A stretch of DNA of 49,758 nt, from positions 1 through 49,758 of the forward strand of contig VHCW01000028.1 in NCBI GenBank assembly GCA_016871575.1. Direction: 5' to 3'. This DNA comes from Verrucomicrobiota bacterium. GTDB lineage: Bacteria > Verrucomicrobiota > Verrucomicrobiia > Palsa-1439. Numbering within the stretch: the stretch's first letter is position 1; every line of letters begins with the position of its first letter. The notes under the pieces are model-generated. The model was not told the DNA's origin. It worked only from the letters and a program-made list of their open reading frames with translations, and ran no database searches. Both the position numbers and the translations under genes were made by a program. Of the stretch, positions 28,174-49,658 are shown one piece after another.

Positions 28174-28500
28174 ATGGCGGCAATCATGTACAAACAATCC
28201 GACGGCACCGAGAAACTCCTGGAGGCCGGTGAAAACCCGCTGGTCATCGGACGGCTGAAGGATTCCGATATTCCAGTGCGCGACCCGTTTCTCTCGCGCA
28301 TTCACTGCGGCATCATTTATCACAACCAGCAGTTCCACCTCAAAGACCTCGGTTCCGCCAACGGCACCTACCGCAACGGCTCCCGCGTCTTCGAGTGCAC
28401 ACTCGCCCCCGGCGACCGCATCCAAGTCGGCAACACCACACTGTTCTTCGAAGTCCCCGGCACCGGCCCAATCGTCCTCCGCCAAGGCGTGCGCCCATGA
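28174..28500 (+). CDS. Small stand-alone FHA-domain protein
   Basis: This 108-residue protein is made up almost entirely of one forkhead-associated domain: VIGRLKDSDIPV at about 23-34, LSRIHCGI at 39-46 (the Ser and His of the phosphothreonine pocket), and LGSANGTYRNG at 59-69 (conserved NG). FHA domains bind phosphothreonine peptides, which implies a Ser/Thr kinase partner elsewhere in the genome. No kinase is in the window. Its stop overlaps the next gene's ATG by ATGA. Confidence 0.9.
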   Translation: MAAIMYKQSDGTEKLLEAGENPLVIGRLKDSDIPVRDPFLSRIHCGIIYHNQQFHLKDLGSANGTYRNGSRVFECTLAPGDRIQVGNTTLFFEVPGTGPIVLRQGVRP

Positions 28501-30644: not shown

Positions 30645-31015
30645 AGAAGTCACGTGCTGCTTGGGTGAAACGCATTCCGAAGGGGTGGCCTAAAGAGTAG
30701 CTTATTACTTCAGGGGGCACTTTCAGGGGCACTTCAGGGGCACTTCCGGCTTGATTCGTCCGCTCTTGTCGGAGTATTATTCGGGTAACAACTAAATATT
30801 TGCTGCTTCGGCTGCTGTCCACGGTGAAACTGGTAATTTCGATCAAAGGACGGTGCTTGAAAGCACGCCCCACAAGGGCGTGCCGAAAGCGTTCCTTTGA
30901 AGGCATACCAGTGCCTACCGTGGGGCGTGAGTAAGTGCGCCCCATTTTGTTTAGGTACTGGTTGTTACCGAAATTATCGCTCTGGATCTGCTGGGTGTGC
31001 AAGAAATGAGCGTAA
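30645..31015. repeat. 371-nt gene-free stretch with tandem and inverted repeats
   Basis: At 30709-30746 a TCAGGGGCACT unit is repeated three times (the first copy has one extra G). At 30843-30944 there are nested hairpins: outer TCAAAGGA/TCCTTTGA (30843-30850, 30893-30900), inner GCACGCCC/GGGCGTGC (30863-30883), then AGGCA/TGCCT (30901-30916), and TGGGGCG/CGCCCCA (30921-30944). A 123-codon frame on the minus strand runs through all of this but shows no coding character. No clear promoter is visible for the downstream operon. Confidence 0.75.
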
Positions 31016-31771
31016 ATGACGATAACAAGACACGGTCAATCCTCACCCATTCAGGGTTTACAGAGGCACATAGTCTTCTTTTTTGTTGCTGTTCTTTTCA
31101 CTCTCAATAACGTCCGCGCAGACTCCTCGCGAAGGTGCGAACAAACAGCGCTTGATGGCCTACTAGCCATTACTGAAGCACAAACAAGATTTGCAGTTCG
31201 GAATGGACGGTATGCCAAGAGCATCGCGGAATTGGGGTTTCAGTCATCGGTGATGAGTGCGGGGCAAATCACTATGAAGGCGGCGTTTGATGGAGATTAT
31301 GATAACCAAAGGCGAATTGCAGCAGACGGGTACTTCTTCCGTGTCTTGCCGATCAGAAGCGAATCGTCAGGGACGGAGAGCAACTCATTTTGGGCAATCG
31401 CCATTCCGGATAGCAGGCGGAACGACTTGCCCGTCTATGTGACAGCAGGCCACCGGATTCGAAATATCAATTTCCCGTTGGTCAACTGGTGGGCGTTGCG
31501 GCTGCACGATAAAACCCGGCTGCAAATTGCTGGTATGCTTACCACTCAGTCGGCGGTGTCGCCTCAAGAGATCGGCTTGGATCCTGACAGGCCTGATGTG
31601 TATCCGAACGTATTTGTTATCCGTCGCTTTTTACTGGATTCGAATGTGAGCTACCCGTCGTCAGAACAACCCCAACCCCCAGCACAAGATTACCGTATCA
31701 TTCTGATCGTCGGTGGAATCGTAGCTGTCGTGTTTCTGTTACTCCTGAGCCGAAAATCAAAACGTTGCTAG
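31016..31771 (+). CDS. Exported, C-terminally membrane-anchored protein with a pseudopilin-like segment
   Basis: This 251-residue protein has an N-terminal hydrophobic signal (about 20-37, HIVFFFVAVLFTLNNVRA). Next comes ALDGLLAITEAQTRFAVRNG and then RYAKSIAELG (about 45-75), which resembles the helix plus RYA(S)LAEL region just after the N-terminal helix of type IV pseudopilins. A beta-rich domain follows, then a Pro/Gln-rich linker (SSEQPQPPAQ) and a TM helix at about 226-245 followed by RKSKRC. The arrangement suggests an extracytoplasmic domain held by a C-terminal anchor. I do not recognise the family. It lies 12 nt before the next gene, as the first gene of the six-gene unit. Confidence 0.65.
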   Translation: MTITRHGQSSPIQGLQRHIVFFFVAVLFTLNNVRADSSRRCEQTALDGLLAITEAQTRFAVRNGRYAKSIAELGFQSSVMSAGQITMKAAFDGDYDNQRRIAADGYFFRVLPIRSESSGTESNSFWAIAIPDSRRNDLPVYVTAGHRIRNINFPLVNWWALRLHDKTRLQIAGMLTTQSAVSPQEIGLDPDRPDVYPNVFVIRRFLLDSNVSYPSSEQPQPPAQDYRIILIVGGIVAVVFLLLLSRKSKRC

Positions 31772-31783
31772 AAAGGAAATCCT

Positions 31784-33181
31784 ATGAAAGCAAACCGTAT
31801 CAGTGTCGTGATGTTTGCCATTACTCTGCTTTTTGTGCATCTCGTCTTTGCGCAACAAGAGGGTATGGTGAAAGTGCAAAAGCCGCTTTCCGACGTGGAG
31901 CCGGGAGAGTGGTGGCGAACGTCATGGCAGGCTGGTTACCAATATTACCACGCCGCAGAGTTCGAGCTTGTGTGTGAAACCAAGTTTGTGCCGGGAGATA
32001 CGCCACGCTGGATTGATCAAGTCGCAGCGAAACACTTGTTAGCGGGTGCGTCACTGCGCCTTGGTGGTATCGCACATATCAACTCCTTTGCGCTGGAAGG
32101 TTCACCGAACCCTCTATTGGCGCGGTACTACGAATCTGTTCATGTGGATCGAAAGCTCAGCGGGAAGTTCCAATACCTGACAAACACAACTCAGGGGATG
32201 CACCAATGGCTGTTCAGCGGCGGCATCAAGGAAATTGCTAGGCAAGCAGTGAATTGGATTGGAAGTATTGTTTCCAGTTACGTGCTTAAGAAGCCAATTC
32301 CACCAAAGGTCGTGGACGCGACCGGTGCCGGCACGTATTTGGGTAAGAAAGCACAAGAAGGAACGGAGCAGTATCTTCGCGGTCAAGGATTGTCTATCGA
32401 GAAAGACGGTTTTCAGATTAAGACTGATTCGCAGGTTTTTGCGAAGCTGCCCTTCGCAGTCGAGTTAAAGGGCGTGGACAACCTCGCCGTGCAGATGACC
32501 GAAGATTTTCGCAACCGATTCCTTGTGATGCAAACGCAGGGCAATCAACTGAAGGTCCATGACGGCACTGAGTCCGCAGAGAAACTCGCAGCAGTGATGG
32601 ATAAACCTGGCGAGGCCAAGAAGCTGATTGCCTCGCTACCGGAACCATCGAGCGAGCGCGTTGGGGCTGTGCTTCAGCGTGAAACGCTCGCCCTGAATAA
32701 GGCTATCTTCGATGGCAGAACTCGAAGGGTTGGCGATGTTTGGACGATTGATGGTAGTGTTTTGTCGGGGTTTCTGCATCCTGACCTGAAGGGAAACTTT
32801 CAGGGCCGGGTTGTACTCAAGTACGAGAAGGACGATCCAACGCGCAAGAGCGAGCACTACAAGGATGGCGGAGCGACGTACACTGCCCAAGTGCTCCACA
32901 TTGTTCCATCTGCGCAGATCAAACGCGAAGCCGTCCATTCCAATCTGGAGTACGTCGAGCCGAAGTTCAGGGCAAAGATCAACGATCAGACAGAAGCGAC
33001 AATCTACGTGGACGCGAAAACCGCAATGGTTCGCGAGGCGATTCTGGACTTTCAGACCGATGCCTCGCGGGAAGTGCTACCGGACATGGTGATCACAAGC
33101 GGATTGCAGGCGGCCGGTAAAGTGCGGTTGACCATCCATTATCTCGCGACCCGCTCTGAGATTCCGAAATCCCGGCCATAA
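31784..33181 (+). CDS. Secreted protein of unknown family, paralogue of the 35383 gene product
   Basis: This 465-residue protein has a signal peptide (MKANRISVVMFAITLLFVHLVFA, cut near FAQQ; shown only in part elsewhere). The middle contains a possible amphipathic stretch (IARQAVNWIGSIVSSYVLKK, about 150-169). The C-terminal half, about residues 290-440, holds LQRETLALNKAIFDGR, RVGDVWTIDGSVLSGFLHP, DLKGNFQGRVVL and YVDAKTAMVREAIL, which align position by position with the product of the gene at 35383. A GAAAGGA ribosome site precedes the ATG. It is spaced 12 nt from both neighbours. It is probably periplasmic and may work with the ABC transporter encoded next. Confidence 0.7.
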   Translation: MKANRISVVMFAITLLFVHLVFAQQEGMVKVQKPLSDVEPGEWWRTSWQAGYQYYHAAEFELVCETKFVPGDTPRWIDQVAAKHLLAGASLRLGGIAHINSFALEGSPNPLLARYYESVHVDRKLSGKFQYLTNTTQGMHQWLFSGGIKEIARQAVNWIGSIVSSYVLKKPIPPKVVDATGAGTYLGKKAQEGTEQYLRGQGLSIEKDGFQIKTDSQVFAKLPFAVELKGVDNLAVQMTEDFRNRFLVMQTQGNQLKVHDGTESAEKLAAVMDKPGEAKKLIASLPEPSSERVGAVLQRETLALNKAIFDGRTRRVGDVWTIDGSVLSGFLHPDLKGNFQGRVVLKYEKDDPTRKSEHYKDGGATYTAQVLHIVPSAQIKREAVHSNLEYVEPKFRAKINDQTEATIYVDAKTAMVREAILDFQTDASREVLPDMVITSGLQAAGKVRLTIHYLATRSEIPKSRP

Positions 33182-33193
33182 AATGAGAACAGT

Positions 33194-34201
33194 ATGGCTA
33201 CGGCATTCGAAAGCGATGTAGTTCGCCTCACGGATTTCCGAGCAAATCCAGACAGCATGGGTCGTGGGAAGGCCATCGGAATGAGCGTGCGGAGCTTGCG
33301 GCTGCAACGCAACCGCACATACGCATTGGTGAGCGCAAGCGGGCGCGGCAAATCAGTGTTCCTCAGTTTGCTTGCTGGATTCCCACCTTTCGCTTGGCAG
33401 AACGCAATGCGTTGGTCTGCATGGGAAGTCTTTGGTAAGAACATATTGCCGCCAGACGGTAAGCGTAGAAACAGTTTCTCACCGTTGTTTCCCATAGATG
33501 GTCAGAATGCGATCATTTACTTACCGCAAACTTTTCCACAGGACCGGGCGGAGGATTTGCCGGCACTGGAGGCGATGGCCTTTGTGCTATGTGTCGGTGG
33601 ATCTGCCAAAAGTTTGGCCGAAGCCAGAGAGCTGGTCAGAGAAGTGGCCTGTGCAGAACCTTTTGTGCTGTCTGCTAAAAATCTGGATCAGCCACTACAT
33701 CAGTTGTCTGGCGGAGAGCGTCGTCGCTTGGAATTGGCTACTCGTTTGACAGCGATTTATCCGCGCAACAACGCGTCACCGGCGGCGAGTGGAAGACGCG
33801 CTTTAATCCTGCTCGACGAGCCAACGACGGGGTTGGATGTTCTCAGCGAAACAAGGTTCCAACTCTTCTTGTATGAACTGGTCGAGAAGGCTCACTCCAA
33901 CGGGACTGAGATTACAACCGTTGTGGCGACCCACGCATTTGCCCACCTAGTGCCAGACCTCCCGGATTCTGTTGAGGTTTTGGTTCTGGATAGGGATGAG
34001 CAACTTGCCCAACCGCGCCCTCCTCCCAGCATGATCCGCCTAGTGTTTCAAGGGTCAGTCCGAGAAAGTTTCGAGCATTTCGCACAGTTTGCCGAAGGCG
34101 GAAAAGAGATGGACGGTTGGCGGTCGATCATTGAAATCCTTGAACGTAGATCGTCCCCTGAACTGGAGCGCGCTTTTTTCGACGAGTCCAACGATGAATA
34201 G
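33194..34201 (+). CDS. Divergent ABC transporter ATP-binding protein
   Basis: This 335-residue protein has all ABC ATPase landmarks. Walker A is SASGRGKS at 47-54, with the usual first Gly replaced by Ser. The Q-loop is in YLPQTFPQD, the signature LSGGERRRLEL starts at 171, Walker B ALILLDEPTTGLD has D208-E209, and the H-loop is VATHAFAH. A C-terminal extension of about 60 residues after the core (MIRLVFQGSVRESFEHFAQF onward) is unusual. It should energise the permease encoded next, with which it overlaps by 8 nt. The closest families (LolD/MacB/ABC-2 types) are not distinguishable by eye. Confidence 0.85.
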   Translation: MATAFESDVVRLTDFRANPDSMGRGKAIGMSVRSLRLQRNRTYALVSASGRGKSVFLSLLAGFPPFAWQNAMRWSAWEVFGKNILPPDGKRRNSFSPLFPIDGQNAIIYLPQTFPQDRAEDLPALEAMAFVLCVGGSAKSLAEARELVREVACAEPFVLSAKNLDQPLHQLSGGERRRLELATRLTAIYPRNNASPAASGRRALILLDEPTTGLDVLSETRFQLFLYELVEKAHSNGTEITTVVATHAFAHLVPDLPDSVEVLVLDRDEQLAQPRPPPSMIRLVFQGSVRESFEHFAQFAEGGKEMDGWRSIIEILERRSSPELERAFFDESNDE

Positions 34202-35396
34202 TTTCGCGCTCGATCTTCGTCGCCAATTTAGCAGGCGTGTTTGTTCGCCGGCGAGTCTTCGGCGCGAATGGCGTGAACTGCCACAAGCAGCGCAACGCCG
34301 GGAATGCTTGGGTTTCAAGAAGCTCCGGCGCGTGCTACCGGAGACGTGGCGCATCGTGCAGTTGGGAGGGTTGCCCATCTTGGTAGCGATACTGATCATG
34401 CTGGCATTCATGAGTTCCAGCCCGCCGAAAGACGACAAGTTCATCTTCTTTTCAACGCTTTATGCCTTTTGGCTTGGGTTGTTTGGAAGTTGCCAGACGC
34501 TCAATGGTGAAGCGGCCGGTGGAGAATGGAGCTATTGGGTACTCGGCAACCGCTTGAACTTCCGCAGGCACTTGTTGGCTGTTGCATCGGTCAGTCTGGC
34601 CATTTCCTGTCTTCAGGTCGCCTTGTTTGCCGCGACAGTGCTCGCGTTGGACCGGCTAGTGATGCTTGACACTCTGGTTGCGGTTTTTGCCCAAGGCGAC
34701 TTCCAACTGCGTATTCCCGACAGCCAAGGCGCGACCGGCATGCTCTCAGCACAAAGCCAATGGGGGCTTGCCGTTTTCATCTTTGTCACTGCTCTCCTAG
34801 CCGCGGCCACAAGCGGCGTATGCTTGGGAACGATGTTTAGCGCGTCGTTTAAGGAACAAGCTAGTTCCGTGCGTGCCGCGGTCGCTGTCATTGTGCTCCA
34901 AGCGGTAATCTCAGCGACCGTATTGGGGAGAGAGAGCCGATTCCCGTTGCTGGCGGTTTGGTGGAAAGTAACGCCGCGCTCAGCATTCTTCGATGACGTG
35001 CGGCATGGTGGCGATCCGCTGCCAGCACTCGGGTTGCACAAGGGCGAAGCCTTCTTAGAAGACCTTTCTCTGCTCATGCCACAACGGTACTTTCATAACC
35101 TAGGGCGAATACTTAGCAGCAACACATCACACGTTGATCGGCCCGGCGAGCGCGGGAAATTTGCCCTGAATCGCGCTTTCGAGGCCAACCCCAAACTATG
35201 GTCACAAATTCAGCAATGGAGAACACCAGATCCAGAACAGCGACCTACGAACAAACAGTTCCGGCACTTTTTCCGGTTCTTGTTTTGGCGATTGATGCTG
35301 CCGGAGATCGCCGCCTTGGTTGTCCTCAACACCATCTACCTCGTTATTGCCTGCCAGAGAATCCAGAAGGGAGAACATTACCATGTACTTCGCTAA
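34194..35396 (+). CDS. ABC transporter permease-like membrane protein
   Basis: The ATG at 34194 overlaps the ATPase stop, and 400 residues follow. After a basic cytoplasmic N-terminus (about 1-50) six hydrophobic segments can be seen: LGGLPILVAILIMLAFM, FFSTLYAFWLGLFG, VASVSLAISCLQVALFAATV, LAVFIFVTALLAAATSGVCL, AAVAVIVLQAVISATVLG and LPEIAALVVLNTIYLVIAC. A large polar region (about 290-370) lies between TM5 and TM6. This ABC-2-like plan suggests export or release of an unknown substrate. It overlaps the following secreted-protein gene by 14 nt. Confidence 0.78.
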   Translation: MNSFALDLRRQFSRRVCSPASLRREWRELPQAAQRRECLGFKKLRRVLPETWRIVQLGGLPILVAILIMLAFMSSSPPKDDKFIFFSTLYAFWLGLFGSCQTLNGEAAGGEWSYWVLGNRLNFRRHLLAVASVSLAISCLQVALFAATVLALDRLVMLDTLVAVFAQGDFQLRIPDSQGATGMLSAQSQWGLAVFIFVTALLAAATSGVCLGTMFSASFKEQASSVRAAVAVIVLQAVISATVLGRESRFPLLAVWWKVTPRSAFFDDVRHGGDPLPALGLHKGEAFLEDLSLLMPQRYFHNLGRILSSNTSHVDRPGERGKFALNRAFEANPKLWSQIQQWRTPDPEQRPTNKQFRHFFRFLFWRLMLPEIAALVVLNTIYLVIACQRIQKGEHYHVLR

Positions 35397-36648
35397 GCCA
35401 TCGTGGGCCTTCATAACTTTGCTGCTAGTATCCGCGTTGCTAGTCAGCGCTGCCGCCTCAGCTCACCAAAATCGTGGTGTCCGCTTTCAGAGTAAGGTTG
35501 AGGACGTGTCAAAGACAATGCTTCTGTGGCAGCCGAACGTTAAATACGAAAGCACACTAACACTTTCATTTGAGGCAAATAACGTCGAAATCCTCGGCGA
35601 TGCGTCTGGAAAACCAATTTCAGGAGTCGGCAGCAGGCCTCTCTTTTACTCGGGCAAATTGAAGTACACCACCGATATGCATCGAGGAAACCGAGATCAG
35701 GGTAGCGCAATCCGCCGCTATGAAGTTGCCGAAATGAGTAAGGTCGTAGGTGACACGTACGTCACTATCAGCGGATTTCCTCTGCGTGAACGATTGTGGC
35801 ACATCTTCAGGAAATACGCGGGAGAAGGCAGCGATTATGACATGGTACAAAGTCGAATCACGAAGGATTTCATAGTAGTTCGCCCGAAGAAGAATGAATT
35901 TGCCAAGATGGTCGACGAGGTTGCACCGATGTTTGAAACCATTCCCAAACTTAAGGGGCAGACCTTCATTCTCAGTTGGAGCTCCGACACGCAAGCACGC
36001 AACGCAGCTCTGAAAGTCGCAATGGCTGATTCAAATTACGAACCGTCTCAAACCGAACAACCACCCGAAATTGTCAGCGATGTCATTAGGCGAGAAGCCA
36101 GCCTGCTCTATAACGCAGCGCTGGGAGACCGAGACCGGAAAGCCGGAGACACTTGGGTAATGGACGGAACTGTTCTCGGCGGACTGATCTATCCAACACT
36201 GAAAAGCGCTTTCACCGGTCAGGCCGTTGTGCGGGCCGAGGAATTCAAGCAAGCGACACCGCCTTTGGATCGCTACCCCAACAGCGGAACAACGGCTTCC
36301 CCAGATTCATTCGCACACAAGCCATTCAACGGCATTCGCGTTGTGTTCACACCGTCTGGACCAATCGAGGGGCAACGAATCATCTCAAAGCTGCGCTACC
36401 GGACTGAGACTGCTGACGGTGGACAGCGTGAAATCGGTATAGATTTCGGTGATCCATCCAAAGTGGTCGGTGACATGTATGTGGACACAGACCGGCAGAT
36501 GATCCGTCACGCCTATCTGAAGGTAACCGATGCTGAATACACCGGCAGCATTCCGAAATTCGGCAGCGTCACAGTGAACGCAAGGGTCAAAGGCGGCATT
36601 GTGCTGCTGCTGCAATACGACTGCGTTCCGGTCAGCTACCAACCATAG
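35383..36648 (+). CDS. Secreted protein of unknown family, paralogue of the 31784 gene product
   Basis: The ATG at 35383 is preceded by AGAAGGGAGAA and gives a signal peptide (FITLLLVSALLVSAAASA). The 421-residue protein shares with the 31784 product an E-x3-L-x-NAAL core (IRREASLLYNAALGDR), KAGDTWVMDGTVLGGLIYP, TLKSAFTGQAVV and MYVDTDRQMIRHAYL. The N-terminal halves differ (here RGVRFQSKVEDVSKTMLLWQ), so they may be a fold shared in the C-terminal domain with different partners. It lies directly after the permease gene, in the same operon. Function is unknown. Confidence 0.72.
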   Translation: MYFAKPSWAFITLLLVSALLVSAAASAHQNRGVRFQSKVEDVSKTMLLWQPNVKYESTLTLSFEANNVEILGDASGKPISGVGSRPLFYSGKLKYTTDMHRGNRDQGSAIRRYEVAEMSKVVGDTYVTISGFPLRERLWHIFRKYAGEGSDYDMVQSRITKDFIVVRPKKNEFAKMVDEVAPMFETIPKLKGQTFILSWSSDTQARNAALKVAMADSNYEPSQTEQPPEIVSDVIRREASLLYNAALGDRDRKAGDTWVMDGTVLGGLIYPTLKSAFTGQAVVRAEEFKQATPPLDRYPNSGTTASPDSFAHKPFNGIRVVFTPSGPIEGQRIISKLRYRTETADGGQREIGIDFGDPSKVVGDMYVDTDRQMIRHAYLKVTDAEYTGSIPKFGSVTVNARVKGGIVLLLQYDCVPVSYQP

Positions 36649-36657
36649 GGCACTAGC

Positions 36658-37089
36658 GTGAGACTTCTATACTCGTTTTCAGTCTGCACCTGCATGCTTT
36701 GCTTGGCATGCAAGACGGTGTCAGTTTCTAATAAAGATCCGGTGACGACTGCTTCAATCTGTCAGTCTCAAGAGCAAGACTCACCGAGGAACAATCTCGC
36801 ACTCCCAATAGGAAGGTATGCCGACGAAAGCGGCGGACGGGTTCTTTTTGTTACCCGAGAGGATAATGCTAAGTATCGGCTGGAAATTCGTGCGAAAGAC
36901 ACGTCTGACCGGTTTGTTAATCTCGCTGCCATTCCGCAGGTTGTAGGCACGCAGATTTTGCAGATGGAAGGTGTGAATGACATTACCGGTAACAAAGAGA
37001 CCCTACGGGTCACACTCGAGAGTAACCAGTTGCAGGTTGAACGGCTAGGCGTTCCTTTTCTTGAAGTAATTCTTTTTAAGAAACAGTAG
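36658..37089 (+). CDS. Small lipoprotein of unknown function (GTG start)
   Basis: The frame opens with GTG at 36658, 9 nt after the previous stop. It encodes 143 residues with a lipobox LACK (Cys 18) after a short hydrophobic stretch. The mature part is beta-rich and polar (GGRVLFVTREDNAKYRLEIR, RVTLESNQLQVERLGVPFLE). It is the last gene of the six-gene unit, and 102 nt follow before the hydrolase gene. I know no family. Confidence 0.65.
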   Translation: MRLLYSFSVCTCMLCLACKTVSVSNKDPVTTASICQSQEQDSPRNNLALPIGRYADESGGRVLFVTREDNAKYRLEIRAKDTSDRFVNLAAIPQVVGTQILQMEGVNDITGNKETLRVTLESNQLQVERLGVPFLEVILFKKQ

Positions 37090-37191: not shown

Positions 37192-38139
37192 ATGAAGCAA
37201 TCCACACGGCGCATTAAACCCATATTCTTTACATGTCTGACAGTCCTGTTTCTCGGTATCGCTCTGTTCAAAGACTGGTACAAAACTCCCTTGCTCGTTG
37301 TTAGGGTGTTATTCAGTAATGACGTTCGGTTTTCAACAACATGGTTAGAGCGAAAGCTGACAACCCGCACGCAAATCGGTTGGACAAAGCTACGCGCCCA
37401 ACCATTCGACGCGACAGCCAATGACGGGACCTTGCTGAAGTGCTTATTCGTTACCAACAGCCTTCCGAAAGCTAGAGGAACGGTTCTGGTCTTGCATGGA
37501 CTGGGCGGCAACAAAGAAAACGAATTGTGGTTGGCGAGAGATCTTTTCAGCACTAATGGATTCAACACGATCTTCTTTGATTCTCGCGCTCATGGTGAAA
37601 GTGGCGGGCGGTTCTGTACGCTTGGTGTCAAAGAAGCACCGGACATTGGAATCATAATCAAAGCAGCCGAGAAGAAGTTTGGATCACTGGGAAACATCGG
37701 CATCTTTGGACCGTCGTTGGGATCTGCTACTACCATTCAAGCGATACCCATTACACCACGATTGAAGTGCGCAGTTATCTTTTCGCCATTCTCCAAATCA
37801 AGTGAAGTGCTAAACGACTGGAAAATGAAATGGATGAAAGAGCTACAACAGAAACGCATGAGATCCGATGACGCTGATATTGATTCTGTCGATCTTCTGG
37901 AAAAGGCTCCGCTGGTGACAATACCGATTCTTTTGGCGCATGGAGAAAAGGACACGATGATGCCAATAGAACAAGGCCGTATGGTGTTTGCGAAATTGGG
38001 ATCTGTGGACAAGCGATTTCTACCTATTCCACAAGCCGGGCATGAAGATATGTGGAATACAGACGCTCCGGTGCATGATGGAAAGACTCTGCGGGAAATA
38101 GTGGTGCAGTTCTTTGTTGATCATCTTGGCGATAGGTAA
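37192..38139 (+). CDS. Membrane-anchored alpha/beta hydrolase
   Basis: This 315-residue protein has an N-terminal hydrophobic anchor (about 10-25, FFTCLTVLFLGIALF). An alpha/beta-hydrolase domain follows: VLVLHGLGGNKEN (oxyanion region, HG motif), the nucleophile elbow FGPSLGSAT with Ser 175, the acid in LAHGEKDTMMP, and the His in AGHEDMW. It is similar in layout to the YqkD/BAAT-like serine hydrolases. Natural substrate unknown. It is the last gene of the low-GC island, followed by the CATGGGG array; it may belong functionally with the ABC-linked secreted proteins, but it has its own ribosome site and a 102-nt gap. Confidence 0.85.
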   Translation: MKQSTRRIKPIFFTCLTVLFLGIALFKDWYKTPLLVVRVLFSNDVRFSTTWLERKLTTRTQIGWTKLRAQPFDATANDGTLLKCLFVTNSLPKARGTVLVLHGLGGNKENELWLARDLFSTNGFNTIFFDSRAHGESGGRFCTLGVKEAPDIGIIIKAAEKKFGSLGNIGIFGPSLGSATTIQAIPITPRLKCAVIFSPFSKSSEVLNDWKMKWMKELQQKRMRSDDADIDSVDLLEKAPLVTIPILLAHGEKDTMMPIEQGRMVFAKLGSVDKRFLPIPQAGHEDMWNTDAPVHDGKTLREIVVQFFVDHLGDR

Positions 38140-38144
38140 AAATG

Positions 38145-38296
38145 GGGCATGGGGCGGCCATGGGGGGCCATGGGGTCAACCATGGGGGCCATGGGGTCAA
38201 GCCATGGGGTCAGGGGTCAAGCCATGGGGTCAGTCAAGCCATGGGGTCAGCTCCGTAAACTGTCAAGCCATGGGGTCAGCTCCGTAAACTGTAAAT
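38145..38296. repeat. Degenerate tandem array of CATGGGG(TCA) ending in two 29-bp units
   Basis: CATGGGG occurs nine times; six copies are the full CATGGGGTCA, starting at 38169, 38190, 38203, 38223, 38240 and 38269. Spacing is irregular (10-21 nt) at first. Then two exact 29-bp units follow (38236-38264, 38265-38293), each containing CATGGGGTCA followed by GCTCCGTAAACTGT. The sequence between the hydrolase stop and ywiC (38140-38469, 330 nt) holds this array, a palindrome, and no gene. Confidence 0.85.
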
Positions 38297-39177: not shown

Positions 39178-39621
39178 GTGAAAATACTCCTGGCAATCTT
39201 GTTCGGCACGTTGGCCGGCGCGGGCGGATATACATTCTACTACGCGCGCGGCCTGTCCTATCTTTCCGACGATCCGCGCGCGTGCGTGAACTGCCACATC
39301 ATGCGCGAACAGTTCGACGGCTGGCAGAAGGCCAGCCATCACGCGCACGCCACGTGCAACGATTGCCATGTGCCGCGCCATTTCACCGGGAAATGGGTCA
39401 CGAAGGCGGAGAACGGCTGGCATCATTCGCGCGGGTTCACGCTTCAGGATTTTCACGAGCCAATCCGCATCAAGCCGGGCAACGCCGCCGTGCTGAATGC
39501 AAATTGCCTGCATTGCCACAAGGATTTCGTGCGCGAAATCACCGCGCACCGCGTGTTGAAGGATGAAGAACTGTACTGCGTCCGTTGCCACGACAGCGTC
39601 GGGCACGGGCCGCGCCGTTGA
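39178..39621 (+). CDS. nrfH: Cytochrome c nitrite reductase small subunit
   Basis: This 147-residue NapC/NrfH-type tetrahaem protein starts with GTG directly after the ywiC stop. It has an N-terminal membrane anchor (about 3-22). The four haem sites are CVNCH (36-40, with M42 as likely axial ligand), CNDCH (60-64), CLHCH and CVRCH. It takes electrons from menaquinol and passes them to NrfA on the periplasmic side. nrfA follows after 12 nt. Confidence 0.95.
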   Translation: MKILLAILFGTLAGAGGYTFYYARGLSYLSDDPRACVNCHIMREQFDGWQKASHHAHATCNDCHVPRHFTGKWVTKAENGWHHSRGFTLQDFHEPIRIKPGNAAVLNANCLHCHKDFVREITAHRVLKDEELYCVRCHDSVGHGPRR

Positions 39622-39633
39622 GAAAGGAATGCG

Positions 39634-41112
39634 ATGATCAAGAAAATTGGATACTTGTTGTTGGCGTTGGTGGTCGCCGCCGCGACCGTTGGCGTGATGT
39701 TGTTGCGCGAGAACATCGCCACGCGAAAAGCCGAAGCCCGTCAGGTCGCGTTTCAGGTCGTGCCGCTCGACGAGACCTCGGACGACCCGGCGCAGTGGGG
39801 CAAGAATTACCCGCGCCAGTACGATTCCTACCGGCGCACCGTGGACATGGAACGCACCCGGCACGGCGGCAGCGATGCCGACCCGTTTGCCGTCGGCGAG
39901 CACGGCGTCCGGAAAACCGTCAGCAAAATCGAACAGGATCCGCGCTTGAAAACGATGTGGAACGGGTACGCTTTCGCCATTGATTTCCGCGAGGAACGCG
40001 GCCACGCCTACATGCTCCACGACCAGAAGGAAACCGACCGCGTCTTGAAACGCCCGCAGGTCGGCGCCTGCCTGCATTGCCATTCTTCGACCACCGTCGC
40101 CTACCGGAAAGCCGGCCGGGAAGCCGGCGCGCCCGGCAAACTCACCGACCCGCTCCTCGGCCCGACTGGCATGGAGCAGTTGATGAAAGGGTTCCCCATC
40201 GTCTCCGCCGAGCCATACAGCAACGCCGTCAAGCGCGTCGAGCATCCCGTCTCCTGCCTCGACTGTCACGACCCGCAAAGCCTCCAGTTGCGCATCACGC
40301 GTCCCGGCCTGATCCACGGGTTGACGGCGCTCGCCGCAAGCGCCGATCCCGTCCCGCACCTGCCATCCATTGAACGCTGGCGCAAAGGCGACCGCCGACA
40401 ACCTTATGATGCCAACCGCGATGCCTCGCGCCAGGAAATGCGTTCGCTCACCTGCGCGCAATGTCACGTGGAATACTACTGCGCGTCGAAGGCCGCGTTG
40501 TTCTTCCCGTGGGCCAAGGGCTTGAAGGCCGAACAGATGGAGGCCGTGTATGACGAATACAAGTTCCCCGACGGCACGCCGTTTGCCGACTGGAAACACG
40601 CCACGACCGGCGCGGACGTCATCAAGGTGCAGCATCCTGAATTTGAGTTGTGGAGCCAGGGCATCCACGCCCGATCCGGCGTGGCCTGCGCCGATTGTCA
40701 CATGCCGTACAAACGCGAAGGCGCCATCAAGATCAGCGATCATCACGTCCGCAGCCCGTTGTTGAACGTCTCCAAGTCCTGCCAAGTCTGCCATCATTTC
40801 AGCGAAGACGAAATCAAGGAGCGCGTACACGCCATTCAGGATCGGACCAAACAGTTGATGGACCGGGCGCTTGATGCCGTTTGCGGCCTCATTGCCGCCA
40901 TCGAACAGGCGAAGACAAACGGCGCGACCGACGACCAGCTCCGCGCGCCACGCCAGTTGCAGCGCAAAGCCCAGTACCGGGTGGATTTTGTCAACGCCGA
41001 AAACTCGATGGGGTTCCACGCCCCGCAGGAAGCCGCCCGCATCCTCGGCGAAGCCATTGACTACGCCCGGCAAGGCCAACTCGCCGTGGCAACCCTCGCG
41101 CAGAAACATTGA
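39634..41112 (+). CDS. nrfA: Ammonia-forming cytochrome c nitrite reductase, five-CXXCH type
   Basis: This 492-residue pentahaem enzyme reduces nitrite to ammonium with six electrons in the periplasm. The N-terminal segment (4-24) is a signal or anchor. Haem motifs are CLHCH (146-150), CLDCH (207-211), CAQCH (273-277, followed by VEYY with the catalytic Tyr), CADCH and CQVCH. The conserved catalytic His lies in VIKVQHPEFELW. Most NrfA bind the active-site haem through CXXCK; here that first site is CXXCH, so no dedicated lyase (NrfEFG/NrfI) would be needed. An AAAGGAA ribosome site precedes the ATG. Confidence 0.95.
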   Translation: MIKKIGYLLLALVVAAATVGVMLLRENIATRKAEARQVAFQVVPLDETSDDPAQWGKNYPRQYDSYRRTVDMERTRHGGSDADPFAVGEHGVRKTVSKIEQDPRLKTMWNGYAFAIDFREERGHAYMLHDQKETDRVLKRPQVGACLHCHSSTTVAYRKAGREAGAPGKLTDPLLGPTGMEQLMKGFPIVSAEPYSNAVKRVEHPVSCLDCHDPQSLQLRITRPGLIHGLTALAASADPVPHLPSIERWRKGDRRQPYDANRDASRQEMRSLTCAQCHVEYYCASKAALFFPWAKGLKAEQMEAVYDEYKFPDGTPFADWKHATTGADVIKVQHPEFELWSQGIHARSGVACADCHMPYKREGAIKISDHHVRSPLLNVSKSCQVCHHFSEDEIKERVHAIQDRTKQLMDRALDAVCGLIAAIEQAKTNGATDDQLRAPRQLQRKAQYRVDFVNAENSMGFHAPQEAARILGEAIDYARQGQLAVATLAQKH

Positions 41113-46914: not shown

Positions 46915-48267
46915 ATGCATATTAACTTGTGGAAAGACACATGTGGGATGTTGCGGACAATGCTCAGCGCGGAGCTGTTCAACCGGTGGTTTGCGCCCAT
47001 TCAACCCCTTGAATTGCGCGATGGCGTTCTGGTGTTGGCTGTTGCAAATGAGTTTTCGCGAATTTGGTTGCAGGACAATTTTTTGCCACTGATCCGCGAG
47101 ACTGCTTCGAAGGCCGCGAAAAACCCGGTGCAGGTTAAGTTCCTTGTGGTCGCACACGCATTCAAACGAGAGGAGCCACCTGCTTCCCAATCGTCCGTTG
47201 TTTCTGAACGGGCCAATTCATCCGCGCCTTCTTCGATCAAGCTGAATCCTCGCTATACGTTTGATTCATTCGTCGTTGGCCCCAACAATCACCATGCGCA
47301 CGCTGCTTCTCTTGCCGTTGCCCAAGCTCCTGGTCGCGCGTTTAATCCTTTGTTCCTTTACGGCGGTGTTGGCCTTGGAAAAACACATTTGATGCAAGCC
47401 ATCGGCCATTATGCGGCTAGCCACGGAAAACAACGGCGTGTCTGCTACATTACGACAGAGGATTTTACGAACGATTTTATTCATGCCATCGGCAATGGTT
47501 CCGTCTCGAAGTTTCGCAAGAAATTCAGGCAGCCGGATGTTCTGTTGATTGATGATATCCATTTCCTTGCTGGAAAAGAGCGCATGCAGGAAGAGTTTTT
47601 TAATACCTTCAATTCTCTGTTTGATGCACATAAGCAGATTGTCCTCTCCTGTGATCGTCCTGCCTCTGAAATCGCCAACTTGGAACAACGTCTGGTCTCT
47701 CGGTTTGAGTGGGGTTTGGTGGTGGATTTGCAACCGCCTGCTCTGGAAACGCGTATTGCCATCTTGAAGAAGAAAGCGGCAGCTCTACACGTTCAACCAA
47801 CAGACGAGATCCTGTCATTTTTAGCCGAGAAGATTAAAGCCAATATCCGCCGTCTTGAGGGTGCGTTGATTCGAGTCGCTGCATATTCTTCTTTTTCAGG
47901 CTGCCCTCTGACAATTGAATCTGTGGAATCAGTTTTACGTGATGTGTTTCAAGAAGAGGGGCGCCGATCCCTGTCAATTGAAACGATACAAAAAAAAGTG
48001 GCTGAGCATTTTGACATAAGGCTGGCAGACATGACGAGTCACAGACGCACTAAAAACATATCTTTTCCAAGGCAAATAGCCATGTTTCTGACCAGAGAAC
48101 TTACTGATTTCCCTTTTGTTCATATAGGCGAGTCCTTTGGAGGGAGAGATCATGGAACAGTGTTGCACGCATGCCGAGTAATAAAAAAGAGTTCGGAAAA
48201 AGAAGAAAAAGTAATGCAGACGATTTCATTCCTAACAGAAGCACTCAGGCGTGAACAACATGTGTAA
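46915..48267 (+). CDS. dnaA: Chromosomal replication initiator protein
   Basis: This 450-residue protein has the four DnaA domains: I (LWKDTCGMLRTMLSAELFNRWF, two pieces, to about 85), a short polar linker II (86-110), AAA+ domain III with Walker A GGVGLGKTH (150-158), Walker B DVLLIDDIHFL and sensor RLVSRFEWGL, and domain IV with the DNA-binding signature GGRDHGTVLHAC. It binds TTATNCACA boxes and melts the origin. GTGGAGATAAATA before the ATG can act as ribosome site. One DnaA box lies 24 nt upstream, which suggests autoregulation. The codon usage is less GC-rich than upstream genes. Confidence 0.98.
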   Translation: MHINLWKDTCGMLRTMLSAELFNRWFAPIQPLELRDGVLVLAVANEFSRIWLQDNFLPLIRETASKAAKNPVQVKFLVVAHAFKREEPPASQSSVVSERANSSAPSSIKLNPRYTFDSFVVGPNNHHAHAASLAVAQAPGRAFNPLFLYGGVGLGKTHLMQAIGHYAASHGKQRRVCYITTEDFTNDFIHAIGNGSVSKFRKKFRQPDVLLIDDIHFLAGKERMQEEFFNTFNSLFDAHKQIVLSCDRPASEIANLEQRLVSRFEWGLVVDLQPPALETRIAILKKKAAALHVQPTDEILSFLAEKIKANIRRLEGALIRVAAYSSFSGCPLTIESVESVLRDVFQEEGRRSLSIETIQKKVAEHFDIRLADMTSHRRTKNISFPRQIAMFLTRELTDFPFVHIGESFGGRDHGTVLHACRVIKKSSEKEEKVMQTISFLTEALRREQHV

Positions 48268-48369
48268 AGACTGTGAAAAGAGCAGCAGAAATAAAGAAAG
48301 AGCCGAAAGCAGACGAACAGACAATGAGAAACAGGCAGACTTCCACATTCGTATGTACTTGAGGACTGC

Positions 48370-48400
48370 TTGACAAAAACTTTGATAGCATTTATTCACA
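48370..48400 (+). promoter_or_regulatory. dnaN promoter overlapped by a DnaA box
   Basis: TTGACA (48370-48375), 17-nt spacer and TATTCA (48393-48398) form a good promoter. A perfect DnaA box TTATTCACA spans 48392-48400, covering the whole -10 element. DnaA binding here should block RNA polymerase. The leader to the dnaN ATG is about 45 nt. Confidence 0.6.
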
Positions 48401-48451
48401 CGCTTTAATGGGAGTGCTTCTAAAAGAATAAAGAAATAGAGGAATAAGACG

Positions 48452-49552
48452 ATGCCAATTAAACTCCATGTCACGAAAGAGAAAATTCTGGACGGCCTTC
48501 AGAAAATTCAGAATGTTGTAAGCGTTCGCTCTACACTACCCATTCTTTCAAACACGTTGTTGATCGCTGAAAAGGATGGCCTTTGTTTGACTGCAACTGA
48601 TTTGGATGTGGGAATCCGTTGTCGTATTGCTGCAGAGGTTTTGAAGCAGGGATCCGCTACAGTGCCCTGTCGTAAATTGTTTTCCATTCTTCGTGAGTTA
48701 CCCAGTCAGGATTTTGATCTTGAGGTTGATGAAAAAAATACCATGTCTCTCCGCTCTGGAGGCTCTTTTTTCCGGATTTTGGGCTTGCCTGCTGAGGAGT
48801 TCCCTCGTTTCCCCTCATTTCCCGAAATTAAGGAGATTAAAATTGACCAATCTGTGCTAAGGTCTCTTTTGAAGAGAACGGCCTATGCCGCATCCACGGA
48901 CGATACGAGATTTGTGTTAAATGGAGTTTTTTGGAGTTTCAAAGCGGAAAAACTCACAATGGTTGCAACAGATGGCCGCCGTCTTGCTTTGGCAGAAGCT
49001 GAACTGGCTCATCCAGTTTCCTCAGAAATGGAGTTTATTCTCCCCTCAAAGGCGGTGTCGGAGCTTTCTAGGCTCTTAGCGGATGCCGGAGACGCCTGTA
49101 TTCGTGTCACTGAGAATCAAATTCTGTTCGAACTTGGAGATTCAATTCTGGCCTCAAAGCTGGTCGAGGGTGTATTTCCGAATTTCCGCCAAGTGATTCC
49201 TTCGGACTCTAAGGAGAGGATAAAAATAGAACGTGAGAGCCTCCTTGCAGCACTTCATCGAGTTTCTATTCTTGTAAGTGAAAGACAAAATGCTGTAAAA
49301 CTAAACTTCTCAAAGAATTCCCTCTCCATTTCTGCGTCCGCGCCAGAAGTAGGCGAAGCGAAGGAATCTCTTCCCATCAACTACAAAGGCAAGGACATAA
49401 GCATCGGATTCAACCCTCAATTCCTAATGGATCCCCTGAGAAATCTGGATGCCGATGAAGTAATCATGGAACTAACCGACGAACTGAGTCCTGGAGTTTT
49501 GAAGATAGATGCGCCCTTCCTTTATGTCATTATGCCAATGAGGTTGAACTAA
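48452..49552 (+). CDS. dnaN: DNA polymerase III beta subunit (sliding clamp)
   Basis: This 366-residue protein has the length and three-domain build of DnaN. It opens MPIKLHVTKEKILDGLQKIQ; SVRSTLPILSNTLLIAEKDG, FVLNGVFWSFKAEKLTMVAT and DGRRLALAE are conserved blocks, and it ends DAPFLYVIMPMRLN. It encircles DNA and holds the polymerase; the delta-prime loader is encoded at 16565. It follows dnaA after 184 nt, the usual dnaA-dnaN order. Confidence 0.98.
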   Translation: MPIKLHVTKEKILDGLQKIQNVVSVRSTLPILSNTLLIAEKDGLCLTATDLDVGIRCRIAAEVLKQGSATVPCRKLFSILRELPSQDFDLEVDEKNTMSLRSGGSFFRILGLPAEEFPRFPSFPEIKEIKIDQSVLRSLLKRTAYAASTDDTRFVLNGVFWSFKAEKLTMVATDGRRLALAEAELAHPVSSEMEFILPSKAVSELSRLLADAGDACIRVTENQILFELGDSILASKLVEGVFPNFRQVIPSDSKERIKIERESLLAALHRVSILVSERQNAVKLNFSKNSLSISASAPEVGEAKESLPINYKGKDISIGFNPQFLMDPLRNLDADEVIMELTDELSPGVLKIDAPFLYVIMPMRLN

Positions 49553-49584
49553 TCCTCAAAAGGTTGTAAAAGGACAGATACAAC

Positions 49585-49658
49585 TGCCTCGTGGTGTAAT
49601 GGTAGCACAACTGACTCTGGATCAGTTTGTCTAGGTTCGAGTCCTAGCGAGGCAGCCA
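49585..49658 (+). tRNA. tRNA-Gln (anticodon CUG), CCA encoded
   Basis: The acceptor stem TGCCTCG (49585-49591) pairs with CGAGGCA (49648-49654), followed by G and CCA (49656-49658). The anticodon stem ACTGA/TCAGT (49610-49614, 49622-49626) closes the loop CTCTGGA with anticodon CTG at 49617-49619. The T arm CTAGG-TTCGAGT-CCTAG is perfect. It lies 32 nt after dnaN. Confidence 0.96.

Follow-up and report, generated by a model that had tools for sequence, protein, structure and literature searches.

Among described transport systems, the closest to the locus reported here is Rv1747/PknF, in which the ATPase domain (NBD) and the membrane domain (TMD) are fused in one polypeptide that also carries an FHA domain, with a kinase encoded next to it; the transporter is of the ABCG type and probably an exporter (PMC3908365). 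The operon analyzed in this study encodes an ABC transporter together with two related secreted proteins, and we did not find a description of it in the openly licensed literature. It lies in a window of 49,758 nucleotides (contig VHCW01000028.1) from the genome of a Verrucomicrobiota bacterium of the GTDB group Palsa-1439, and the window is the whole stretch of DNA to which the positions in Table 1 refer.

Organization of the locus

Six tightly packed genes occupy positions 31016 to 37089 of the plus strand. A first-pass annotation of the sequence had read six genes on this strand with gaps of 9 to 12 nt or overlaps of 8 to 14 nt, and all of the open reading frames were recovered at the same positions, with junctions of +12, +12, -8, -14, and +9 nt in gene order. 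The composition of the unit had also been said to differ from that of the surrounding chromosome, which proved to be the case (GC of 0.48 to 0.55 versus about 0.60 to 0.62). A Pfam search of the six products returned a family only for the ATPase, and promoter and terminator scans of the unit gave no signal above shuffle level. The unit was not found in the 56 relatives searched with protein A, which included members of the same genus and family; in relatives the two genes flanking the unit lie on separate contigs, and in the congener the contig stops just past the left flank gene.

TABLE 1 Genes of the operon and features of its flanks, with positions in the window
Feature	Position	Strand	Remarks
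Free-standing FHA-domain protein	28174-28500		PF00498, E 4e-19; flanked by gltX and a DJ-1/PfpI gene
Lipoprotein, 339 aa	29625-30644		Weak FG-GAP similarity
Dispersed repeat, ~150 bp	30805-30960		Hairpin-like end (GTGGGGCGTG...GCGCCCCAT)
P1, exported, 251 aa	31016-31771	+	N-terminal hydrophobic stretch and C-terminal TM segment 227-245
A, secreted, 465 aa	31784-33181	+	Sec-type signal peptide; A/B domain is the C-terminal half, about 289-465
Divergent ABC ATPase (NBD), 335 aa	33194-34201	+	PF00005, E 1.2e-7, and motifs
ABC-2/ABCG-like permease (TMD), 400 aa	34194-35396	+	Profile match to class I TMDs
B, secreted, 421 aa	35383-36648	+	Sec-type signal peptide; C-terminal A/B domain about 227-421
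Small exported protein, 143 aa	36658-37089	+	GTG start; possible lipoprotein, non-canonical lipobox CLA|C
Alpha/beta hydrolase, membrane-anchored	37192-38139		PF12146; GC 0.47
Tandem run of ATGGGGTCAAGCC-type units	38145-38290		Run terminates in two identical 29-mers (GTCAAGCCATGGGGTCAGCTCCGTAAACT)
NrfH/NrfA-type cytochrome pair	39178-41112		Nitrite reduction
dnaA- and dnaN-like genes, tRNA-Gln	46915-49658		Right contig end; dnaA- and dnaN-like genes identified by eye

The low-GC block extends beyond the operon on both sides. Upstream it includes the lipoprotein gene, and the dispersed repeat that directly precedes the operon has 13 further copies in the same genome, at 72 to 79% identity, and no match in Rfam. 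Downstream, the hydrolase gene begins 102 nt after the unit; it does not adjoin the operon in the relatives read, and it possibly belongs to the same acquired block. The tandem run, of which one short partial copy alone occurs elsewhere in the genome, stands at the right edge of the block, and the cytochrome pair lies to the right of it. Because dnaA- and dnaN-like genes stand at the right contig end, the window probably ends near a replication origin. The gene of the free-standing FHA protein lies 2.5 kb upstream of the transporter operon. The nearest relatives of this transporter have fused FHA domains, and the proximity may be coincidence.

A divergent ABC transporter of the ABC-2/ABCG type

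The ATPase has a Walker A motif (SASGRGKS) whose first glycine is replaced by serine, an LSGGE signature, an LLDEP Walker B motif, and an H-loop. Its similarity to LolD is weak (E 1e-6), Pfam searches found neither a C39 peptidase domain nor an FHA match, and profile comparison identified it as homologous to the NBDs of two operons in which the ATPase and the permease are fused (L036 and L039). The permease is predicted to be polytopic, with a long loop ahead of the last TM segment and the motifs FFSTLYxFWxGLF, GEWxYWVLG, and PQRYFxN. It has no direct match in Pfam, including FtsX and MacB_PCD, and none of significance in a PDB sequence search, but its profile matches the TMDs of the class I relatives described below (98.1%, E 1e-13), which themselves match PF01061/PF12698. 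An ABC-2/ABCG architecture for the transporter is thus well supported by sequence comparison. Searches of the six products against Pfam and NCBIfam revealed no HlyD-type or MacA adaptor and no kinase, and the host genome encodes separate MacB_PCD proteins and LolD-like ATPases at other loci.

Recurrence of the operon

A search of 388 genomes of the phylum with the A and B profiles found two other Verrucomicrobiia genomes with the gene order of the window, which runs from exported P1 through A, ATPase, permease, and B to a small lipoprotein-like gene. The permease profile added three Kiritimatiellae genomes. When 84,980 species genomes were scanned with the permease motifs, seven loci were found in total, all in Verrucomicrobiota or Kiritimatiellota and all with an operon of exported gene, ATPase, permease, and secreted gene. 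Two of these loci were new (L036 and L039), and in them the ATPase and permease form one polypeptide of 709 to 714 aa, the order being A, P1, fused transporter, B, and a small exported protein; the NBD and TMD are split in the window and in L037, L038, and L040 to L042. The operon is kept in four further Verrucomicrobiota loci and in three Kiritimatiellae loci, the latter with partly unrelated end genes. No viral contig matched the ATPase or the permease profile, nor were there hits among plasmids searched with A or phages searched with the ATPase.

Leave-one-out profiles run against shuffled controls relate the window proteins to those of the Verrucomicrobiia relatives at E values of 3e-45 for A, 1e-33 for the ATPase, 1e-38 for the permease, and 1e-31 for B. 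In the Kiritimatiellae, the ATPase and permease are likewise clear relatives, and A matches moderately (78%, E 1.7e-5). The secreted protein in the fourth position of their operons has no sequence relation to B, and homology of B between Verrucomicrobiia and Kiritimatiellae was not detectable by profile comparison. We considered that this protein might be a B bearing the sixth gene as a C-terminal fusion, and we rejected this because profile comparison showed nothing. Most of the related genomes are metagenome-assembled genomes (MAGs). Diverged genomes share the gene arrangement of the window operon, which rules out chance as its cause. The first-pass annotation had proposed that the six genes work together as an ABC machine of the envelope whose two secreted partners are related to each other, and this is upheld.

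P1 is homologous to the gene of the same operon in the Verrucomicrobiia relatives (profile E 7e-8; score 55.5, with shuffles at 26 or below), and homology between the Verrucomicrobiia and Kiritimatiellae versions was not detectable by profile comparison. The C-terminal anchor first ascribed to P1 is present in the window, but there only; the relatives have an N-terminal anchor, while the globular part, with a core of EAQ, ELG, GYFF, and AxP, is conserved. P1 matches no Pfam family, and a PDB sequence search with its profile gave nothing significant; the pilin matches are not significant either (PilA, E 1.1), and the P1 of L036 matches DUF2950 below cut-off (E 0.16). The last protein, which had been read as a small lipoprotein, is small and exported, but its lipobox is not canonical. 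It shares its position with small exported genes in L036, L038, and L039, and its equivalence to the last genes of the relatives is positional only, homology being not demonstrable.

A partner domain found beside ABC transporters

A and B are significantly similar (BLASTP, 3e-13; profile-profile E 8e-16). The similarity is limited to the C-terminal ~165 residues, and the N-terminal halves score no better against each other than shuffled sequence. The earlier description of A and B as paralogues is borne out by sequence in the C-terminal part. They cannot be called equivalent, as had been suggested, since the C-terminal domain alone is shared by sequence and the two proteins form separate old lineages, always retained as a pair. 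Neither protein matches Pfam or NCBIfam, hence neither matches the LolA or LolB families, and the A profile has no significant match among PDB sequences. The A/B domain is an undescribed protein domain.

A profile of this domain was used to survey the 388 genomes, which make up one phylum-level group, other phyla being covered through the permease motif. It recovered 14 genes in 10 genomes. The first-pass annotation had held that its reading would fall if A and B homologs occurred mostly away from ABC genes, and all 14 were found beside an ABC transporter gene. Six are members of A/B pairs in operons like that of the window (class II), and eight are single proteins (class I). An N-terminal TM anchor or hydrophobic stretch is present in seven of the class I partners, and the eighth begins at a contig end. 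All eight adjoin an ABC transporter in which the ATPase is fused to an ABC-2 membrane domain, and Pfam detects FHA domains in six of these transporters. In class I neighborhoods, taken from simple ORF calls, protein kinase domains are encoded next door at four loci (L019, L057, L058, and L061) and DO-GTPase matches, below the curated cut-off, occur at four (L033, L057, L059, and L061), so that six of the eight relatives read have one or both. One genome (G210) contains both classes.

Profile comparison relates the class I partner both to A, at 97.4% (E 1e-11), and to B, at 91.8% (E 7.5e-7). In the tree of the domain, the class I proteins form one clade (support 100) and the B proteins another (99), with the A proteins outside both, which suggests one duplication before the class II operon spread, although the root is a midpoint root and leaves the direction unproven. 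Because the domain occurs singly beside fused, usually FHA-bearing transporters of the ABCG type, the window system is apparently a derivative of the Rv1747-like class that has no FHA domain and has two partners.

Two of the class I loci contain single proteins of 1,100 to 1,160 aa in which a Ser/Thr kinase domain is fused to a DO-GTPase-like domain (L057, 10029-13520; L061, 9901-13218). In each case the gene immediately follows that of an FHA-ABC transporter whose A/B partner is anchored, and it is possible that these loci represent a membrane signaling system in its own right.

Predicted fold of A and B

The AF2 model of A (pLDDT 61.9, pTM 0.65), in which long strands wrap helices, is of moderate confidence and was built from 8 sequences, and that of B (pLDDT 49.6) is of low confidence and was built from 5 sequences in an alignment independent of that of A. 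The two models are alike in predicted strand order. The top five Foldseek matches of A, with E values from 1e-6 to 1e-4 and a probability of 1.00, were without exception large lipid transfer proteins (LLTPs), namely two chains of MTP, honey-bee vitellogenin, lipovitellin, and ApoB. With VIA-align, A matched the ApoB beta-barrel (Z 9.2, 230 aligned, rmsd 5.8 A) and lipovitellin (Z 9.2, 209 aligned, rmsd 4.8 A), and the LLTPs were closely followed in its structure lists by outer-membrane barrels, FadL included (Z 7.7 and lower), and by LolA-like MucB/RseB (Z 6.8). The first Foldseek match of B was also the ApoB beta-barrel (E 1.6e-4), which by Z ties with outer-membrane barrels. A beta-barrel fold for A and B is therefore weakly supported by the models.

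In lipovitellin the N-terminal barrel, the part matched by A, is not known to be the main lipid cavity, so the fold is no proof of lipid binding. The LLTP barrel also mediates protein contacts, which makes a docking or sensing role for A and B a rival to a carrier role. On the models, A and B are probably periplasmic beta-barrel partners, and we infer that they would accept an amphipathic, lipid-like substrate.

Proposed mechanism and alternatives

We propose, with a probability of roughly 40%, that the operon encodes an ATP-driven exporter of the ABC-2/ABCG type that hands an amphipathic, probably lipid-like substrate to the periplasmic carriers A and B. The system would consist of one inner-membrane ABC exporter and two dedicated periplasmic partners sharing a beta-rich C-terminal domain, together with P1 as a membrane-anchored accessory and a small protein that is exported or lipidated. 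It may have arisen from, or have a common ancestor with, a fused, usually FHA-bearing ABCG-type transporter and a single membrane-anchored A/B protein, a class probably under kinase or GTPase control; in the window version the FHA input would have been lost and the partner gene duplicated and its product secreted. Using ATP, the transporter would extract the molecule from the inner membrane and load it onto the beta-barrel of A, from which that of B would take it over for delivery across the periplasm, much as LolCDE passes its substrate to LolA and LolB. Export is the likeliest direction, given the relation to FHA-ABCG transporters and the domain type. The operon contains no substrate gene.

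The same genes can be read as a signaling or triggered-response machine, descended from the kinase/GTPase-FHA-ABC class, in which A and B, as part of a conflict or envelope-stress system, would gate the transporter or act as its extracytoplasmic sensors, with transport only the output. The kinase and sub-cut-off DO-GTPase matches in six of the eight class I relatives are consistent with this, DO-GTPase systems have been described as biological conflict systems (PMC7159879), and the sporadic distribution and atypical GC would fit mobile accessory genes. However, no FHA, kinase, or GTPase gene lies inside the unit, other genes separate it from the FHA gene to its left, and the DO-GTPase scores are under curated cut-offs. 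The defense or sensing role in the first-pass annotation gains no direct support for the unit from PADLOC, which returned no specific system (no match for A, B, the permease, or the small protein, generic ABC/AAA matches only for the ATPase, and a stray weak one for P1). Since the nearest relatives stand beside kinases and DO-GTPase-like genes, a regulated or triggered role retains some plausibility, and we consider a signaling machine a tangible if doubtful prospect. It is unlikely that the transporter is instead a peptide or protein exporter whose cargo is P1, the small protein encoded last, or some further exported product, with A and B serving as chaperones for secretion or as partners at the surface. 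In favor of this reading, the operon itself encodes two small exported products, P1 and the last one, and the core of P1 recalls pseudopilin-like domains, but the PilA and DUF2950 matches that go with this likeness are weak, the ATPase has no C39 peptidase domain, and every member has a P1 with a Sec signal or anchor, so that P1 would not need an ABC exporter.

Outer-membrane barrels such as FadL, which rank below the LLTPs for A and compete with them for B, raise the idea that A and B are themselves outer-membrane beta-barrels at the exit of a tripartite export path. We regard this as improbable, because in class I an N-terminal TM segment holds this domain at the inner membrane, and because neither A, which ends in EIPKSRP, nor B, which ends in VSYQP, has a C-terminus resembling the outer-membrane beta-signal. 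Least probable of all, and by our estimate barely credible, is a diverged but ordinary LolCDE/LolA/LolB lipoprotein-release or MacAB-type system. Two soluble partners and one ABC transporter do recall LolA and LolB, as does the LolD similarity of the ATPase, but the permease is related to ABC-2 TMDs and has no FtsX-type domain, neither A nor B matches a Lol family, and MacB_PCD proteins and LolD-like ATPases are encoded elsewhere in the genome, all of which argues against Lol; the missing HlyD-type adaptor argues against Mac. The first-pass annotation had named assignment to Lol or Mac as grounds for abandoning its reading, and the unit belongs to neither.

If the carrier reading is true, the operon would represent a further periplasmic relay in the envelopes of the PVC group, where lipid trafficking is poorly known, and A and B would be a class of partner proteins to seek for Rv1747-like transporters. 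A bolder version, which we offer as speculative and rather unlikely, is a bacterial system for lipid export: an ABCG-type pump would load a pair of periplasmic carriers that have the MTP/ApoB/vitellogenin beta-barrel fold, and the system would be a prokaryotic counterpart of LLTPs and a further kind of relay beside Lol and Mla. Were the fold shared with animal lipid transfer proteins, the question of their origin would arise. The A/B domain is tied to ABCG-type transporters in either form of the partnership, kinase/GTPase-linked and membrane-tethered or secreted and duplicated.

Comparison with known systems

The DO-GTPase/GAP1 conflict systems (Kaur et al. 2020; PMC7159879) resemble the class I relatives in their kinase and DO-GTPase-like neighbors; the window unit has no such component, and the GTPase matches of the relatives are under curated cut-offs. 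With LLTPs (vitellogenin, ApoB, and MTP) the likeness is one of predicted structure, A and more weakly B being nearest to their N-terminal beta-barrel by Foldseek and VIA-align. Unlike the LLTPs, A and B are bacterial and exported, have no detectable sequence similarity to them, and are without the helical and lipid-cavity sheet domains. LolCDE-LolA-LolB shares with the unit one inner-membrane ABC transporter, two exported partners, and a possible carrier relay, but the window permease is ABC-2-like rather than FtsX-like and the partners match neither the LolA nor the LolB family, the likeness in fold to the LolA-like class (MucB) being weak. The Rv1747/PknF type of Mycobacterium tuberculosis has in common with the unit an ABC NBD and an ABC-2/ABCG-type TMD and is likewise a presumed exporter, and the class I relatives approach it further through their FHA domains, fused transporter, and neighboring kinase. 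The window version has no FHA domain and no kinase, and its NBD and TMD are split; its pair of secreted A/B proteins, its P1, and its small exported protein are additions that have not been reported for Rv1747. Because the FHA domain and the kinase are missing, the unit is best placed as a relative of the Rv1747 class and not as a member of that class as defined.
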